In this document: positions 32,919-42,690 of the stretch, piece after piece | How positions within the stretch are numbered: position 1 is the first letter of the stretch | How the letters are laid out: each line of letters opens with the position of its first letter | Source of the DNA: Nanohaloarchaea archaeon SW_7_43_1 | Lineage (GTDB): Archaea; Nanohalarchaeota; Nanosalinia; Nanosalinales; Nanosalinaceae | Assembly: GCA_003009795.1 (NCBI GenBank) | Contig: PXPE01000001.1 | Location: 124,001-188,000 of the forward strand | DNA: 64,000 nucleotides | Direction: 5' to 3' | Notes under the pieces: model-generated | Databases searched by the model: none | Told to the model about the DNA's origin: nothing | What the model saw: the letters and a program-made list of their open reading frames with translations, nothing else | Translations under genes and position numbers: made by a program

Positions 32919-33773
32919 ATGGAATTAAAAGAAGCTAAAAAGATACGAAGTCTCTATCACGATAAAAAAATGGCTCAAAAAGAGATAGCTAGCGAAATGG
33001 GGTTAACTCAGCCCTGTATTTCGAAGAAAATGAAGAAATACGGTATCAAATCAGATTTTAATGGTTTCTGGAGTCAAGAGGATGAAGAAATACTGGTCGA
33101 AATCTATAATGAAAGGTCTAAGAACGAGGTGGTTTCAGAATTCCCTGATAGAAGCTGGAGGGCCATAAAGCAGAAGGCCAATAATCTGGGTCTGAGTGTG
33201 TCAATAGAGGAACATAGAAATAGTGAAGAATTAAGAAAAATTCTGGCTAAAAATTCTAGAGAAAGAGCAATTAAAGTGAATTTTGGCGATGTAGAATCGG
33301 TGTCTTATGTTTTAGGCGTGGTTGACGGTGACGGATTCAATGATAATGATAACACCGTAGGTTTGGAGGTGAAGAATCCTGATTTTGCCGGCAAATTTGC
33401 TGAGAATTTGGAATTAATTGGTTTAAATCCGGGAAGGGGGCAGAGAAGAGGCAAGGAGACTGTCTGGGGATCTTCCAAAGAACTAGTTAACTGGATAAAT
33501 AGTTTCGATTATGATTCCAAATTCGAATGGCTGGTAGAAAAAGGAGATATCTGGAAGTATATTGAAGGCGTTTATGACTCTGATGGCGATTTTAGTAGTT
33601 CCGGACCCAGAATATGCTCATATGATGAGAGTGAGAAAAGATTCATTAAGAGGGTTTACGATTATCTCGATTTGAAAAGTAGCGTTCAATCAAACAATGT
33701 GTATGTCAGGGTTTCAAGCGTTGAGAAATTTTTCGACAATGTAGATCCAGTATATGAGAAGAGAAGACCCTAG
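32919..33773 (+). CDS. Free-standing LAGLIDADG homing endonuclease with HTH and Myb-like domains
   Basis: This 284-residue protein has an N-terminal helix-turn-helix (AQKEIASEMGLTQPCISKKM, about 19-38) and a SANT/Myb-like helix set with three tryptophan positions (WSQEDEEILVEIY, SWRAIKQKANNLG). Two LAGLIDADG helices follow: VLGVVDGDGF (131-140) and YIEGVYDSDGDF (about 214-225), each with the catalytic aspartate. It is not inside an intein or intron that I can see. It probably cuts a specific DNA site; the target is unknown. Confidence 0.82.
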   Translation: MELKEAKKIRSLYHDKKMAQKEIASEMGLTQPCISKKMKKYGIKSDFNGFWSQEDEEILVEIYNERSKNEVVSEFPDRSWRAIKQKANNLGLSVSIEEHRNSEELRKILAKNSRERAIKVNFGDVESVSYVLGVVDGDGFNDNDNTVGLEVKNPDFAGKFAENLELIGLNPGRGQRRGKETVWGSSKELVNWINSFDYDSKFEWLVEKGDIWKYIEGVYDSDGDFSSSGPRICSYDESEKRFIKRVYDYLDLKSSVQSNNVYVRVSSVEKFFDNVDPVYEKRRP

Positions 33774-34198
33774 TCCTGATGTATTTTCCAGGTATAGAAG
33801 CTTTCGAAGACATAGTTGAAGCCGAAACCTGCTATTATACCGATTGTGTTGGCTATTACAACAGGAATTCCGAACATGCCGTAGAGTATTTTCAGTACTA
33901 CCAGCGCCACAACCACTCCTCCGCTCCTGACCAGATTAGACTTCAGAAACCTCCTTAGACCGCCTTTTTGGGCGTCAAATGTCCATTTTTCGTTTAACAG
34001 GAACATGAAGATGATGCTGAGTTCTGCGCTGATCAGTTTTGCTACCTCTATCATTAATTCCGTATTCCGTTCAAGAAGAAATATAACGCCGTTATCAACC
34101 ATTAAACCGATAAAACCGATAAAGGCAAACTTGGAGATTCTCTTCATATTCAGGAGTTCTTTTATACGGTTCTGGTATCTCATAGAAAGATTTTTCAC
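33770..34198 (-). CDS. GtrA-like membrane protein
   Basis: This 142-residue protein has four hydrophobic helices and the GtrA-family pattern FAFIGFIGLMVDNGVIFLL, FLLNEKWTF and GFNYVFESFYTW. GtrA proteins are thought to help move polyprenyl-linked sugars across membranes. The GTG start at 34198 overlaps the epimerase stop (GTGA), so it is translated with that gene. A near-perfect copy of the origin-linked palindrome lies in its coding region. Confidence 0.85.
   Translation of the reverse strand: MKNLSMRYQNRIKELLNMKRISKFAFIGFIGLMVDNGVIFLLERNTELMIEVAKLISAELSIIFMFLLNEKWTFDAQKGGLRRFLKSNLVRSGGVVVALVVLKILYGMFGIPVVIANTIGIIAGFGFNYVFESFYTWKIHQD
34082..34096. repeat. Degenerate copy of the palindrome (one mismatch)
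   Basis: TATAACGCCGTTATC lies inside the GtrA-like gene. The inner 13 bases are a perfect dyad; only the outermost base differs. Confidence 0.45.
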
Positions 34199-35097
34199 TG
34201 CTTGAGAAGTTCTTTCACTGTTTTTGTGACTGATTCCCGAGAGTTCCGCTCTGGTTTCCAGCCTTCATTTTCCAGCTTTGAAATATCCAGTCTCATTTCG
34301 GGTACATCGCCTTCCCATCCTTTCTCGCCGCCTGTATAGCTGAACTTAGGATTGAGGTTCATTTCCTCCGAAACTATCTCTGCAATACCGTCGACATCTA
34401 TCGAGTCCCTGCTTCCGATGTTGAAAACGGTATCCTCCGCTTTCCATGCATGGATTATTCCCTCGACCGTGTTCTCAATATGCAGGTATGATTTCCTTTG
34501 TTTCCCGTTGCCAAGGATTTCCAGTTTTTCAGGTTTTTCCTTTAGTTTGTGTATAAAGTCATATATTACTCCTTTCCGATTCCTTCTTCCTACGATGTTA
34601 GCGAGTCTGAGAATACTTAGTTCAATATCAAAAATCTGGGAGTAAACCTTGCACATGTGTTCTCCACCTGCCTTTGTCGCTCCGTACATTGAGATCGGAT
34701 CAAGGTTTGCGTCCTCAGGTGTAGGTATCTCTGTTTCCTCACCGTAAACCACTGAAGAAGATGCGAAAACTATTTCGTCTACATTATTCTCGATGCATGC
34801 ATCAAGCACGTTCTTTGTTCCTTGAAGGTTCTCCTCAAAATCCTTGTCTTTATCTCCGGGAAATGTTTTGACTTTCGGGTTCGCGGCAAAGTGAAAAACC
34901 GTGTCTAAATCCTTGAAATGAGGTTCTATCTCCTTTTTTGATTTAATGTCGGCCTCAACCATCTCAATGCTTTCGGAAACATTTTCATTTTTCCCGGAGG
35001 ATAGATTATCGATTACTCTTATACTGTGGTTCCTATCCAGTTCCTCACAGAGATGTGAGCCGATAAATCCTGCTCCCCCGGTCACCAAAATCCGCAT
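34195..35097 (-). CDS. NAD-dependent sugar epimerase/dehydratase (SDR family)
   Basis: This 300-residue extended SDR has the NAD-binding motif TGGAGFIGSHLCEEL at residues 6-20, the active-site segment SMYGATKAGGEH (YxxxK) and FASSSVVYGE. It resembles UDP-glucose 4-epimerase-type enzymes, though the precise sugar cannot be assigned. It heads a two-gene leftward unit with the GtrA-like protein, supplying modified sugar nucleotides for surface glycans. Confidence 0.88.
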   Translation of the reverse strand: MRILVTGGAGFIGSHLCEELDRNHSIRVIDNLSSGKNENVSESIEMVEADIKSKKEIEPHFKDLDTVFHFAANPKVKTFPGDKDKDFEENLQGTKNVLDACIENNVDEIVFASSSVVYGEETEIPTPEDANLDPISMYGATKAGGEHMCKVYSQIFDIELSILRLANIVGRRNRKGVIYDFIHKLKEKPEKLEILGNGKQRKSYLHIENTVEGIIHAWKAEDTVFNIGSRDSIDVDGIAEIVSEEMNLNPKFSYTGGEKGWEGDVPEMRLDISKLENEGWKPERNSRESVTKTVKELLKQ

Positions 35098-35153
35098 AAT
35101 TAGGTATTACCAGACAGGAGTTTAAAATATTCTGAGCTCACTAATTACTTTCA

Positions 35154-35900
35154 ATGGCCAAAAAAAGAGTTTCCCTCACACTGGATAAAAATATTGTTGA
35201 GAAAATTGACCGTGAAGCAGATAGAAGAGATCTGAACCGTTCACAGATGGTGGAAAATATTATCGATCAGTATTTCAGTCAAAAAGGATTGGATACAGCT
35301 ATCGTTCTCTGTGGGGATGAAGAGGTCAAAGCTTTGGAGCTATACGAAGGCAAACCTGTTTTAAGCCATATACTTGATAATCTTTCGGAGGAAGGTTTCA
35401 GTAGAGTAATTCTTCTGGTGGGTCAAAACCGTGTTATAGAGGAAGAGTTTGGATCAGATTACAGTGATCTGGCTTTAGAATACATATTTGAGGAAAAAAC
35501 TCATGGTACTGCTGAAGCCCTTTCAGAAGCTGAGAGCAGGATAAACAATAATTTTGCAGTGCTCAACGGCCATGTGATTGCGGAAGTTGATTTCCAGGAT
35601 ATGCTGAATGTTCATAGAGACGAGGATGCGCTCGGCACTATTGCTCTTACCGCTGTTGAGGATCCAAGCAGTTACGGCGTTGCCAGACTTAAGGGTCGGA
35701 AAATACTCGGGTTTGAGGAAAAGCCTAAGAAAGGGGAAGAGCCTTCCCGGCTCATAAACGCTGGAGCCTATATATTCGATCCTGACGTTTTTTCCAGACT
35801 TGAAGAGAACAGTCTAGAAACTGCTTTCTCCCGTTTCGCCTCGGAATCAAAGCTTTATGGCTATATTTACGGCGGAGAATGGGAAGACATAGACGAGTAG
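35154..35900 (+). CDS. RHH domain fused to a degenerate sugar nucleotidyltransferase
   Basis: Residues 1-42 are a ribbon-helix-helix domain (KRVSLTLDKNIVEKIDREA, RSQMVENIIDQYF). Residues 47-248 follow the NDP-sugar pyrophosphorylase fold: LYEGKPVLSHIL, EKTHGTAEALSEAE, SSYGVARLKGRKILGFEEKP and NAGAYIFDP. The signature GGxGTRL loop is replaced by LCGDEEVKAL, and the metal-binding aspartate after the NG of the family NGD motif is a histidine (NGHVI). It may therefore bind sugar nucleotides without catalysing, acting as a sensor-regulator. It lies divergent from an epimerase gene, its likely target. Confidence 0.75.
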   Translation: MAKKRVSLTLDKNIVEKIDREADRRDLNRSQMVENIIDQYFSQKGLDTAIVLCGDEEVKALELYEGKPVLSHILDNLSEEGFSRVILLVGQNRVIEEEFGSDYSDLALEYIFEEKTHGTAEALSEAESRINNNFAVLNGHVIAEVDFQDMLNVHRDEDALGTIALTAVEDPSSYGVARLKGRKILGFEEKPKKGEEPSRLINAGAYIFDPDVFSRLEENSLETAFSRFASESKLYGYIYGGEWEDIDE

Positions 35901-37212: not shown

Positions 37213-37257
37213 CGGGTTAGTCTTAAAAACTTCTATTGTATTACTTTGTATTACGAT

Positions 37258-37926: not shown

Positions 37927-38862
37927 ATGGAAAAGGCACTAGTAACTGGCGGAGCAGGATTTATCGGCTCAAACATTGTTCATCAACTCGTTGACCGTGG
38001 TATAAATGTAGTCGTTCTAGACAGTCTATACCTGGGATCCGAAAGCAATCTGGGAGATGTAAGGGACGAGATTGAATTTATTCAGGGCTCGGTTACTGAT
38101 AGAGAAAAAGTCGAACAAGCAGTTGAAGGATGTGACACTGTTTTCCATCAGGCGGCGAGATCTTCTTCCCCGATGCATAAAGACGAACCTGTTGAAGGCG
38201 CCAAAGTTAATGTTGAAGGATTCATCAACACCGTGGAGGCGGCTAAAAACGCTGAAGTTGAAAAAATTGTATACGCTTCCACAAGCTCAATGTACGGCAG
38301 CGTAGAACCTCCCCACAGCGAGAAACAGGTTGTAACCCCTACCAACCTATACACGGCTTCAAAAATGTCGCGTGAGCTGTATGCAAAAGTCTACTCCCGG
38401 TCCACAAAAATTCATTTCACAGGACTGCGATATTTCTCGGTATATGGACCTCGGGAAAAAGCAAAAGGAGATTATGCGAATGTCATCACCCAGTTCATGT
38501 GGAAGATGATGGAGGATAAGAAACCTGTTATCTGGGGTGATGGAACCCAGAGCAGAGACTTCACCTACGTGAAGGACATCGCAAGAGCCAACATCAAGGC
38601 CGCAGAGATAAAAGAAGAAACTAACGGCGAATACTACAATATCGGAACAGGTACAGATACTTCTTTCAACGATCTGACTGATACCCTGAACAAAGTACTG
38701 GATAAGAGCATTGAACCCGAATACATCAAGCATCCAAGAGATAATCCTGTCATGACCACAAAAGCCCACCTTGAACGTACAAAAAAGGAACTTGGATGGG
38801 AACCACAAGTGGAACTCAGGGAAGGCCTTGAGAAGACCTACAGCTTCTACAGAAACCAATAA
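37927..38862 (+). CDS. NAD-dependent sugar epimerase (UDP-GlcNAc 4-epimerase-like)
   Basis: This 311-residue extended SDR has ALVTGGAGFIGSNIVHQLVD, VFHQAARSSSPMHKDEP, STSSMYGS and YTASKMSRELYAKVY (YxxxK), then RYFSVYGPRE and FTYVKDIARANIKA. It resembles the WbpP/GalE group that interconverts UDP-N-acetylhexosamines. A GAAGGAG Shine-Dalgarno-like sequence precedes the ATG. The neighbours downstream are the N-glycosylation genes, so it likely supplies their sugar nucleotides. Confidence 0.88.
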   Translation: MEKALVTGGAGFIGSNIVHQLVDRGINVVVLDSLYLGSESNLGDVRDEIEFIQGSVTDREKVEQAVEGCDTVFHQAARSSSPMHKDEPVEGAKVNVEGFINTVEAAKNAEVEKIVYASTSSMYGSVEPPHSEKQVVTPTNLYTASKMSRELYAKVYSRSTKIHFTGLRYFSVYGPREKAKGDYANVITQFMWKMMEDKKPVIWGDGTQSRDFTYVKDIARANIKAAEIKEETNGEYYNIGTGTDTSFNDLTDTLNKVLDKSIEPEYIKHPRDNPVMTTKAHLERTKKELGWEPQVELREGLEKTYSFYRNQ

Positions 38863-38922: not shown

Positions 38923-39990
38923 TTACAGGAATAAAGCCAGACCTAAAATTACTACGAACACCTCTAATACCATTAGGGAGACTGTGATCTCTTTCTCATT
39001 CATACCTCTGTCCATGAAGACATGGGTCAGCGAGTAAATACTTTCATGCTGGTTCCTCAACTCATTACCTTCCAGTAACCCCCAGGAGTGTGCTTCAAAC
39101 CGGTTTCTGGCTTTAAGGAAGAACTCTAGGAACCATGGACCGAATATGAATACCCCGAACTTCTCCATATCGCCGAGAACCATCACCGAGAATAGGGCAG
39201 CTCCACAGAGATATGTAAGTGAATCACCTGGGAGAATGGATGCAGGATACCAGTTATAGATTAAGAATCCGAACAGAGCTCCTGAAAGACTGAAGCCCAT
39301 AAGAGCTGCTTCTATTCTACCGTTGAACAGTGCAAAGGTTCCAAGCCCCAATGCAGCTATCAGGCTCATTCCCGCTGACAGCCCGTTGGTACCGGCTAAC
39401 ATATTTACGACATTGGCGACAAACAGCAGTCCGAGAGGCAACAGCACCAGAGGATAGAACAGACCCCATTCGATAACTCCTATAATTGGAAAGTTCATGG
39501 TCCAGGAACCGGCCCCTACAGCCATAAGAGGGAATACAGCGGGCAGCACAAAGATCATCTTGCTGAGCTGGCTTAAACCTACTCTGTCTATGTCAGGATT
39601 ATCGAACTCTACCTGATCCCCGAAAACATCCATTATCTCAAACAACCTGTTCGAAGAGCTTTGCTCGACTTCTATTCCTTCCCCAACATGGATATCATCT
39701 ATCAGACCTATCAGCGTGATTATGTTGATTGAACATACTGATGCAAGAACCAATTCGTTCTGGATCCCCACTTGCAAAATTTTTCCCAGTCCGATCACAG
39801 CCATTGTGGAAAAAAGAACGCCGAACAGTACTACAATTCCTCCAGAGGTCGCAATTTTAGGTTTTCGGGGTTTCTGTTGATCTTTACCGTAGATGCCTGA
39901 GGAAAGCAGATATTTTTTTGCCAAAGGAACTCCAAAAGCTACGGAAATAAAACTGAGAACCGTTGCAGAGATAATTAACGATAATTCCAT
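38923..39990 (-). CDS. Dolichyl-phosphate GlcNAc-1-phosphotransferase (Alg7-like, GPT family)
   Basis: This 355-residue membrane protein has about ten helices and the GPT-family motifs TSGGIVVLFGV, GLIDDIHVG, NMLAGTNGLSAGMSL and ILPGDSLTYLCGA. It transfers a sugar-1-phosphate from a UDP-sugar to dolichyl phosphate, the first step of N-glycan assembly. It lies 6 bases downstream of the oligosaccharyltransferase gene, pairing the first and last steps of the pathway. Confidence 0.88.
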   Translation of the reverse strand: MELSLIISATVLSFISVAFGVPLAKKYLLSSGIYGKDQQKPRKPKIATSGGIVVLFGVLFSTMAVIGLGKILQVGIQNELVLASVCSINIITLIGLIDDIHVGEGIEVEQSSSNRLFEIMDVFGDQVEFDNPDIDRVGLSQLSKMIFVLPAVFPLMAVGAGSWTMNFPIIGVIEWGLFYPLVLLPLGLLFVANVVNMLAGTNGLSAGMSLIAALGLGTFALFNGRIEAALMGFSLSGALFGFLIYNWYPASILPGDSLTYLCGAALFSVMVLGDMEKFGVFIFGPWFLEFFLKARNRFEAHSWGLLEGNELRNQHESIYSLTHVFMDRGMNEKEITVSLMVLEVFVVILGLALFL

Positions 39991-39996
39991 TATATC

Positions 39997-42690
39997 TCAC
40001 TCTGTATCAATTTCCCACATTCTGACAAACTCTCCGGTATTACCGCCGTCAACCTTGTTGAACATGTCAAGTCCGTGACCGTCCATTAGATAAAGCCTCA
40101 CCAGTGTCGAATCTGCTATCTCCTTCGGTACCAGGACTGCCCGGGCGGCTGTACCTCTTCCGGCATTGGCTGTACCTAAAGCTCTCTCTATGCTGCGGTA
40201 AGGATTTATAGCAACACAGTAACTGGCATCTGTTTCCACTTCGTAATTAATACTTCCTTCATTAGTTAAAGCACAATCCAGATTCGTTCTGCCTCTTGCC
40301 TCAAGTGTTGGAGCCTTAGTCTCAGAGATTTCAACACTTGTTTGACCTACTTCAATAGGCACATAGAGCCCCAGACCTCTTCTACCTCTAAAGTTGACAA
40401 CAGTGTTGTTATCTTTGTCACGGCTTAGAGATCGCTGTATATTGCTCGAGGTCTGTAGCTGTTGCATTGACTTGAAGTTTTCATTGTCTCTGTTCGCGAT
40501 CTGGCTAACAGCTGAGTACTTACCTATCATGGTCTCATCAAGTACAACGTAATCTGCTGAGTGTTTTTCCAAGAATTCCGTATGATTCTCAGGATTGTCT
40601 GAGGTTAAAAACTCGGCCAGAGGGAAGTTGATTTTCTCCTCTGAACCGTAGTATCCGTTGTTTCCTCCGTCGGCTACAGCAGCTCTTTCACCTATTGATT
40701 CGAACCAGTAACCGTAGTCCCACCATGAAAGAATTACATCTCCTTCTTCGGTGTTTTGCTCCATCCATTCAAGATTCTCCATCCACAGATTGTTAGGTGA
40801 TCCTCCAAGATTGTCTGCATTTGCAATACCTGCCGATAAATTAACAGTCAGAGTAAGGACTATTACAGCTGCGATAACCGATATCTTGAGATCGAAGTCT
40901 CTTACCTCTTCTATGAAATCCATATCTTGGATAAAGTAGTATGCTATCCCGTTCAGTGCTACTACCGCTCCGGCTACAACACCCAGTGAGATACTAAGTG
41001 CTGATCCACCCACTAGAACAGCTATGAGATCTATCACTATAATAGCTGATCCGATTCCGAGTAAAGAAACATCATCGGGATCCATTTCCTGGAACTTTCT
41101 GACCACTCTGGAAAATGCATAACCGGCGATTAATGCTGTTGGGAAAGCCGCTAGGAAGATGAGCCGTGACCTTGATACTGCTCCCAAGATTGATGTTAAA
41201 GCCCAAAGGAACGGTAGAACTTGATACCACTTGTACTCTATACTGAAACTGCTTTTCTGACCGAGCGCGCTCACAATTATTAAGCCGCCCGCAACAGCGA
41301 GTGCCGGCGAACCTATTGCCCGTACAATACTTCCTCCCTGGAAGAACGATGCGAACGCTATAACCCATGCAAACAGCACTCCTACCATTAGAAGGTAGTA
41401 GTTTTTCCCTTTCATCTCTTTTTCCACGAAACCTGTTTTTCTGAGCAGCATCGCTGCAATATATGTTCCTCCGAAAACTATTCCGGCAAACGCTAGCGAC
41501 CATGCACCATTAAGTTTTGATAGAGCTCCTAGTAGAGGAGTAAAAGGTCTTAAGACCGTAAGTGATTCCGGTAAAACACTTGCAACGTTAGTAGAAGAGA
41601 CTGCCCCCAGTTGTCCGACTAATTGATTTAACCCGGCCGGAGTATTTTCTGCGACAGTACCTGCAATAACTCCTCCTCCGTTCCGTGTCACACTTCCCAC
41701 CAAACCAAAGAAAACACTTTCAAGGAACTCTGAGTATAGAGGTGACAGAGCCAGAGCGATCAGCCCGGACAGTACTGCAGCTGGTGTGTAATATGGTAGA
41801 TAAGTATTATCTATTAGATCAAGATCCTCGACCAGATAACGGCTCCAAAGCAAAGCCAGAAGCCCAATATTGCCGACGAACAATGTATCGGTTATCCAGA
41901 ATCTTTCAGGATTCATTACTGCTGCAAATCCGCCAGCTACGATAACTAAAGGTGTGTAGGATGCCACAAGGTTCTCGGTATCCTCGTTGATGAACATCAT
42001 TACCAGAACTACAAGCGGATACAGAAGCCAGAGATATTTTGAACCTCCCCAGCTGATGGAGAAAATCCCAAGCGCCAAACCGGAGAACAGACCGAATAGC
42101 TGGCTTTTCTCTTTCCATGCTCTAGTAAAGCAGTAAAGTGATACAAGCATGAAGAATGAGCCGGTTGGCTCCTTATCGAAGAAGCCTGCTGAAGTTCTGT
42201 GAAGAATGCCTGGAATTGTAGCTAGGGAGAAAGCTGCTGCAACTCCAGTATACTCATCATAAAGTTCTTTACCTAAGAAGTATGTGATGAAAACTCCTCC
42301 TGCACCCATCAAAGCCGGGTAGAACTGAGCCCAAGTTAAATAGGATTCAAAGAACAGGAAAGGCCCTAACCAGTAAAGAACTGCCGGGAAGATAATATTG
42401 CCATTATTGAAGTTATGGAACGGAGCATTGTAAGGAAAGTAACGCATGAAATCGACAGCAGGTACGTTTCCTTCAAGTGCAAGGTGTTGGCTCTGCCGGA
42501 AAATCCAGTAAGGGTCCAGAGCCTGTAAATATTTCATACCCTGAGCCGGCATGTATCTAATATATAATGCGAGCAAGAATATCCCGGAAGCAGCTAGAAA
42601 TCCCCAGTTATTCAGTACAGCGGTTTTAGGATCGTTTCTGAACTTCCTTCCTCTTTCCTCCAACCGCTCCTTGAAATCTGGGATCTTCAT
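39997..42690 (-). CDS. aglB: Oligosaccharyltransferase AglB (STT3 family)
   Basis: This 897-residue protein transfers lipid-linked oligosaccharide to asparagine in N-x-S/T sequons outside the membrane. The first loop has ALDPYWIFRQ (D about 59), the membrane part has about 13 helices, and the C-terminal globular domain carries SWWDYGYWFESIGERA (about 655), the WWDYG catalytic-site motif. The size is normal for archaeal AglB. It precedes the Alg7-like gene in the same leftward operon. Confidence 0.95.
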   Translation of the reverse strand: MKIPDFKERLEERGRKFRNDPKTAVLNNWGFLAASGIFLLALYIRYMPAQGMKYLQALDPYWIFRQSQHLALEGNVPAVDFMRYFPYNAPFHNFNNGNIIFPAVLYWLGPFLFFESYLTWAQFYPALMGAGGVFITYFLGKELYDEYTGVAAAFSLATIPGILHRTSAGFFDKEPTGSFFMLVSLYCFTRAWKEKSQLFGLFSGLALGIFSISWGGSKYLWLLYPLVVLVMMFINEDTENLVASYTPLVIVAGGFAAVMNPERFWITDTLFVGNIGLLALLWSRYLVEDLDLIDNTYLPYYTPAAVLSGLIALALSPLYSEFLESVFFGLVGSVTRNGGGVIAGTVAENTPAGLNQLVGQLGAVSSTNVASVLPESLTVLRPFTPLLGALSKLNGAWSLAFAGIVFGGTYIAAMLLRKTGFVEKEMKGKNYYLLMVGVLFAWVIAFASFFQGGSIVRAIGSPALAVAGGLIIVSALGQKSSFSIEYKWYQVLPFLWALTSILGAVSRSRLIFLAAFPTALIAGYAFSRVVRKFQEMDPDDVSLLGIGSAIIVIDLIAVLVGGSALSISLGVVAGAVVALNGIAYYFIQDMDFIEEVRDFDLKISVIAAVIVLTLTVNLSAGIANADNLGGSPNNLWMENLEWMEQNTEEGDVILSWWDYGYWFESIGERAAVADGGNNGYYGSEEKINFPLAEFLTSDNPENHTEFLEKHSADYVVLDETMIGKYSAVSQIANRDNENFKSMQQLQTSSNIQRSLSRDKDNNTVVNFRGRRGLGLYVPIEVGQTSVEISETKAPTLEARGRTNLDCALTNEGSINYEVETDASYCVAINPYRSIERALGTANAGRGTAARAVLVPKEIADSTLVRLYLMDGHGLDMFNKVDGGNTGEFVRMWEIDTE

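Follow-up and report, generated by a model that had tools for sequence, protein, structure and literature searches.

Why would an archaeon join a DNA-binding domain to an enzyme that seems to have lost its catalytic site? The question is raised by one gene within a 64,000-nucleotide stretch (the window) of the complete, 956,550-bp genome of Nanohaloarchaea archaeon SW_7_43_1. A first-pass annotation had read the gene from its sequence as an RHH domain fused to an NDP-sugar pyrophosphorylase fold, transcribed divergently from an SDR gene, and had proposed a transcription factor that uses a dead sugar-nucleotide enzyme as its sensor. We followed up this reading by asking what the RHH domain may recognize, what remains of the enzyme and how both vary across archaea.

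The architecture itself is borne out by profile searches and by the predicted fold (Table 1). RHH_1 (PF01402) matches residues 5–40 with 29.2 bits against a Pfam cut-off of 20.5, and NTP_transferase (PF00483) matches residues 59–245 with an E value of 8 × 10−26, also above its cut-off; no NCBIfam model reaches its curated cut-off for the protein. GDP-mannose pyrophosphorylases are the nearest solved sequences. An AlphaFold2 model, for which the input was a 53-sequence alignment, has a pLDDT of 92.4 and a pTM of 0.83, and its top Foldseek matches are human GMPPA/GMPPB complexes and plant VTC1, with an E value of 4 × 10−19 for the match to 7d74_G; a viral structure library returned generic nucleotidyltransferases only. 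The model contains the RHH helices at residues 12–24 and 29–44, and the strand, which requires a dimer partner, is unformed in the monomer. The base-reading strand is R5-x-S7-x-T9 in the window protein.

Looking for the same fusion in other archaea, as the first-pass annotation had suggested, we found it full-length in about 80 of the 394 genomes sampled by profile search. The closest comparison is with a sister genome of the same genus, Nanohaloarchaea archaeon SW_4_43_9, in which the copy (contig L004/G001) is 93% identical to that of the window and the dN/dS between the two is 0.13 over the whole gene and 0.11 over the nucleotidyltransferase domain. This recurrence, the confidence of the model and the low dN/dS argue that the fusion did not arise by chance. 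We found no account of an RHH–nucleotidyltransferase fusion in the open-access literature.

Table 1 Features of the fusion gene and its surroundings; positions are those of the window unless a locus is named.
Feature	Position	Strand	Basis or remark
RHH–pseudo-nucleotidyltransferase fusion gene	35154–35900	+	248 aa, ATG start; ORF and Pfam domains
RHH_1/CopG DNA-binding domain, residues 5–40	35166–35273	+	PF01402
Degenerate sugar nucleotidyltransferase domain, residues 46–248	35289–35897	+	PF00483; Foldseek
Remnant of the deleted GGxGTR loop (GDEEV) and K59	35313–35330	+	Alignments; K59 aligned to the PKP lysine
HGTAEAL nucleotide-base motif, retained	35502–35522	+	G118 invariant in 55 of 55 degenerate fusions
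NGH replacing metal-binding NGD	35565–35573	+	D in all intact members
SYGVA sugar-pocket motif, retained	35670–35684	+	G175 in 89% of degenerate members
EKP motif, retained	35718–35726	+	K190 in 96% of degenerate members
INAG sugar-contact motif, retained	35754–35765	+	N202 in 71%, G204 in 93% of degenerate members
Divergent SDR, NAD-dependent epimerase/dehydratase family	34195–35097	−	PF01370, E 2.6 × 10−51; 56 bp from fusion gene
Single weak GTATTAC box, 7 bp before SDR start	35104–35110	+	GTTTTAC in sister genome
Predicted operator, tandem GTATTAC-TTT-GTATTAC, 10 bp centre to centre	37238–37254	+	Exact pair GTATTACTTTGTATTAC
Predicted target, cupin-like protein, 205 aa	37258–37875	+	ATG start; mechanical ORF listing from TTG 37246
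Predicted target, second SDR (sugar epimerase/dehydratase), downstream of cupin gene and co-directional	37927–38862	+	PF01370, E 3.7 × 10−60
Small RHH genes with upstream boxes	L195 1349–1579; L196 1477–1761; L198 1196–1459		

A candidate recognition element emerged when the 90 bp upstream of 81 fusion genes were compared with 626 control upstreams. The most enriched 6-mer, GTATGA, occurs in 22 of the 81 fusion upstreams and 21 of the 626 controls (p = 2 × 10−11), and the 7-mer GTATTAC in 20 and 23, respectively. GTAT[GT]A half-sites number 68 upstream of the fusions, compared with 14.2 ± 3.6 in dinucleotide shuffles, and 18 of the 22 pairs of half-sites that lie within 40 bp of each other show offsets of −+9, ++10, −−10 or +−11. 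All four offsets describe a single arrangement, in which a 7-bp pseudo-palindrome, GTAWTAC, recurs every 10 bp, or once per helix turn; the boxes upstream of fusion genes read GTAWTAC or GTATGAT at 10-bp spacing. The presence of a box also follows the RHH strand: 39 of 55 fusions with R-x-[ST]-x-T have one upstream, compared with 6 of 28 with other strands (p = 2 × 10−5, a generous value as the rows are related). This covariation nevertheless ties the box to the fusion protein. NikR, another RHH protein with a C-terminal ligand sensor, has a half-site identical to the top 6-mer (PMC7055735). Its full operator is GTATGA-N16-TCATAC, however, unlike the boxes 10 bp apart at the fusions, and NikR is a tetrameric nickel-binding sensor, whereas the C-terminal domain of the fusion is an NTP_transferase by Pfam. 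Fusions with a K-S-T strand (L158 and L159) have no GTAWTAC boxes upstream and have in common a CCTACTTTATGCGATA stretch, possibly a different operator.

In the window, the element points away from the promoter on which attention had first fallen. The first-pass annotation had placed the operator in the intergenic DNA at 35098–35153, with the divergent SDR as regulatory target. Neither proposal finds much support: the segment contains a single box that is not kept in the sister genome and is probably not the main operator, and a search there for a palindromic operator found none. As the promoter of the fusion gene has just this weak box, 35098–35153 is not the best gel-shift fragment. The conserved pair instead fronts a different operon, at a distance of 1.34 kb beyond the fusion gene, and no other exact pair occurs in the 956-kb genome. 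It lies 4–20 bp upstream of the ATG of a cupin-like gene, the product of which has an HxH...E...H cupin-like pattern as judged by eye and no match in Pfam, NCBIfam or the PDB; no NCBIfam model exceeds its cut-off for the second SDR that follows. In most loci of the family, an equivalent pair is found beside the fusion, ahead of a gene for a cupin, an SDR or a related protein. Across the order, by comparison of positions, 15 of the 20 fusion-bearing genomes have a pair no more than about 2 kb from the fusion; G008 and G012 have none near it.

Pattern searches of whole genomes extend the predicted regulon beyond this neighbourhood. The only other near match in the window genome (G000:796441, one mismatch) lies 10–26 bp upstream of the start of a gene for a live nucleotidyltransferase, in which GGHATRLWP is intact. 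By pattern and inspection, all 18 readable orthologues from the order show a box pair within 50 bp before the ATG; six of these pairs include one weaker box, and in five the second box overlaps the ATG, one of the five having 11-bp spacing. Other sites precede genes for aldolase, PGK and ROK glucokinase and, in more distant genomes, enolase (aldolase, glucokinase and enolase were identified by eye from motifs; the PGK family was confirmed by Pfam in a relative). Exact pairs number about 32 across the order, compared with 0 for a reversed control pattern. Of the 394 genomes, 47 contain an exact pair, and the fusion is present in 33 of these (p = 1 × 10−15 overall and 3 × 10−7 outside the order, both uncorrected for phylogeny). 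By inspection, the boxes are flanked on one side by an AT-rich, TATA-like element and on the other by the start codon.

The distribution of the boxes also supplies a challenge to our reading. G010, another member of the family with a complete genome (973,463 bp), carries boxes at the genes for aldolase, PGK, nucleotidyltransferase and glucokinase, and searches of its sequence found neither a fusion nor a close RHH homologue. As for a different RHH protein that might explain these boxes, the search turned up only a 131-aa RHH frame, possibly NikR, of a kind that several fusion-bearing relatives also have. Boxes in a genome that lacks the fusion imply that another regulator can or does use them; in G010, another factor may either have taken over the boxes or always have shared them. 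Elsewhere in the archaea, stand-alone RHH proteins of 77–95 aa have three tandem GTAWTAC-like boxes directly before their own start, so the fusion is not alone in having the box. A different, order-wide regulator might thus own the boxes and the regulon, leaving the fusion to regulate something else or to play a minor part, and the promoter of the fusion gene in family f1, which is without a box pair, fits such an arrangement. We regard it as unlikely, given that in distant archaea the boxes stand before the gene for the fusion and vary with the residues of its RHH, that in most fusion-bearing genomes of the order a pair is found about 2 kb or less from the fusion, and that boxes and fusion co-occur outside the order.

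The C-terminal domain of the fusion appears to have been stripped of the chemistry but not of the pocket. As the first-pass annotation had noted, the GGxGTRL loop is lost: when AIVLCGDEEVKALELYEGKPVLSH of the window protein is aligned to AVILAGGxGTRxRPxTYExPKPLIPVxGKP, about 10 columns are missing, and the GGxGTRxRPxTYExPKP of intact fusions has shrunk to CGDEEVKAL. The alignments likewise confirm NGH in the position of NGD. D245 aligns to the second metal aspartate of WxDxG, with the end of the chain directly beyond it. Close relatives vary at the metal positions, with NGH, NGN or NGD at the first and W-x-D/N/E/K at the second, the drift expected if catalysis has gone. The HGTAEAL, SYGVA and EKP segments are kept as described, and INAG can be added to them. 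Six residues (G54, G118, G175, G181, K190 and G204) are 89–100% conserved across 55 degenerate fusions, compared with a domain mean of 48%. By its motifs the domain is dead, yet by its dN/dS it is under purifying selection; catalysis is presumably absent from the window protein.

The dead form has living relatives. From the 84 fusion proteins extracted, one truncated copy was excluded from catalytic scoring, leaving 28 that are intact at all scored positions and 55 that are degenerate. On an unrooted maximum-likelihood tree, computed with the loop columns removed, catalytic intactness changes seven times, and no fewer than six changes are required by supported branches. The order to which the window belongs forms a single clade in which every fusion is degenerate, and L115 and L126, from the group neighbouring it, retain GGKGQ[KR]xKPITYExPKP. 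The dead form is most likely derived, because many relatives outside the order keep an intact catalytic site; the direction is read onto the unrooted tree on the grounds that losing a loop is far easier than regaining several residues.

Gene neighbourhoods differ between the two forms in raw counts. PGM/PMM (phosphoglucomutase/phosphomannomutase) lies directly downstream in the same direction for 11 of the 28 intact fusions, which as a marker of intactness is not significant under phylogenetic pairing. An SDR, UGD (UDP-sugar dehydrogenase), nucleotidyltransferase or UDP-GlcNAc 2-epimerase is the divergent neighbour of 26 of 40 degenerate and 0 of 20 intact fusions; this difference, too, is not significant under phylogenetic pairing, because the independent pairs are too few. 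A divergent SDR, as first annotated in the window, faces the fusion in eight loci of the family to which the window belongs. In four loci of neighbour clades (L115, L126, L135 and L138) the fusion is followed by PGK in the same direction, which ties it to glycolysis. Beside the fusion in the window are genes for a family 4 glycosyltransferase (38923–39990) and an STT3-like oligosaccharyltransferase (39997–42690), and 38923–42690 is likely to be a protein-glycosylation cluster. A 284-aa ORF at 32919–33773 has a weak, below-cut-off match to LAGLIDADG_3 and is a possible free-standing homing endonuclease.

A dead pyrophosphorylase need not act on DNA. GMPPA is a non-catalytic paralogue of GDP-mannose pyrophosphorylase that binds GDP-mannose, a dead enzyme kept as a sugar-nucleotide sensor (PMC11228364); it shares the fold of the fusion domain and, in complex with GMPPB, provides the best PDB matches. 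The fusion might similarly be a regulatory subunit that contacts a live nucleotidyltransferase, with the RHH serving as an oligomerization or localization module, and at five loci (L081, L086, L131, L132 and L143) a degenerate fusion does lie within about 4 kb of an intact or near-intact nucleotidyltransferase as a dead/live pair. GMPPA is eukaryotic, however, acts through GMPPB binding and has no DNA-binding domain, whereas the fusion adds an RHH that retains its base-reading residues, and these covary with the DNA boxes; in the window genome, moreover, the live enzyme is unlinked, at 796 kb. We therefore consider this account improbable, while noting that protein contact and ligand-responsive DNA binding could coexist. 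Less probable still is a nucleotidyltransferase that remains active through an alternative site and regulates itself as PutA or NadR do: K59, K190 and D245 persist, and the intact fusions, with their PGM/PMM neighbours, suggest that the ancestral form was probably active, but the whole triphosphate loop is deleted, NGD is lost in most family f1 members and the C-terminal aspartate varies among close relatives.

The reading that we consider the probable one is a one-component repressor of sugar and sugar-nucleotide metabolism, with a dead NDP-sugar pyrophosphorylase as sensor and GTAWTAC operators. Its RHH domains would pair, and the operator statistics suggest that the protein binds DNA as a dimer, each dimer reading one 7-bp box and at least two such boxes, spaced by a turn of the helix, making up the operator. 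Because the boxes fall downstream of the TATA-like element and upstream of the start codon, bound protein should block initiation and so act as a repressor. The sensor has lost the triphosphate loop together with one of its metal ligands, whereas the base and sugar motifs of the pocket persist; its ligand is therefore expected to be a sugar nucleotide or sugar-1-phosphate, the binding of which would alter the affinity of the protein for the operator. In the window genome the predicted regulon would consist of the adjoining cupin–SDR operon and the live sugar-1-phosphate nucleotidyltransferase at 796 kb, control of which would amount to product feedback at the level of the gene; in relatives it may extend to PGK, aldolase, glucokinase and enolase. 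Box binding, repression and ligand identity are all predicted here from sequence. The core of the earlier proposal is supported and strengthened by the age of the fusion and its several independent changes of catalytic state, by conservation of the pocket, and by a predicted operator that varies with the RHH strand and a predicted regulon in sugar metabolism; its target and its operator are weakly supported.

The conversion of an enzyme domain into the sensor of a repressor is an already-known principle. In NrtR, a Nudix fold joined to a winged helix controls NAD genes, an enzyme-fold domain repurposed as the metabolite sensor of a repressor. CggR, a bacterial SorC/DeoR-type HTH repressor of central glycolytic genes, senses fructose-1,6-bisphosphate through a domain related to sugar-phosphate enzymes. 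PutA, an RHH fused to a proline catabolic flavoenzyme that retains catalysis, is comparable to the intact members of the fusion family. TrmB, the archaeal sugar regulator of glycolytic genes, belongs to a winged-helix family with a sugar-binding domain and is unrelated to the fusion.

We put at about evens the broader proposition that these proteins represent a class of archaeal transcription factor that has not been described before. On this view, a moonlighting fusion of sugar-nucleotide enzyme and repressor would have decayed several times to a pure sugar-nucleotide sensor, and the class would govern nanohaloarchaeal glycolysis and sugar-nucleotide synthesis through GTAWTAC boxes. Live and dead versions of one enzyme–repressor fusion coexist, making the path from enzyme to sensor directly traceable. 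To our knowledge, it is poorly understood how tiny host-dependent archaea regulate their central sugar metabolism; the fusion offers a candidate master regulator with an exact predicted operator and a short list of targets, open to simple biochemistry.
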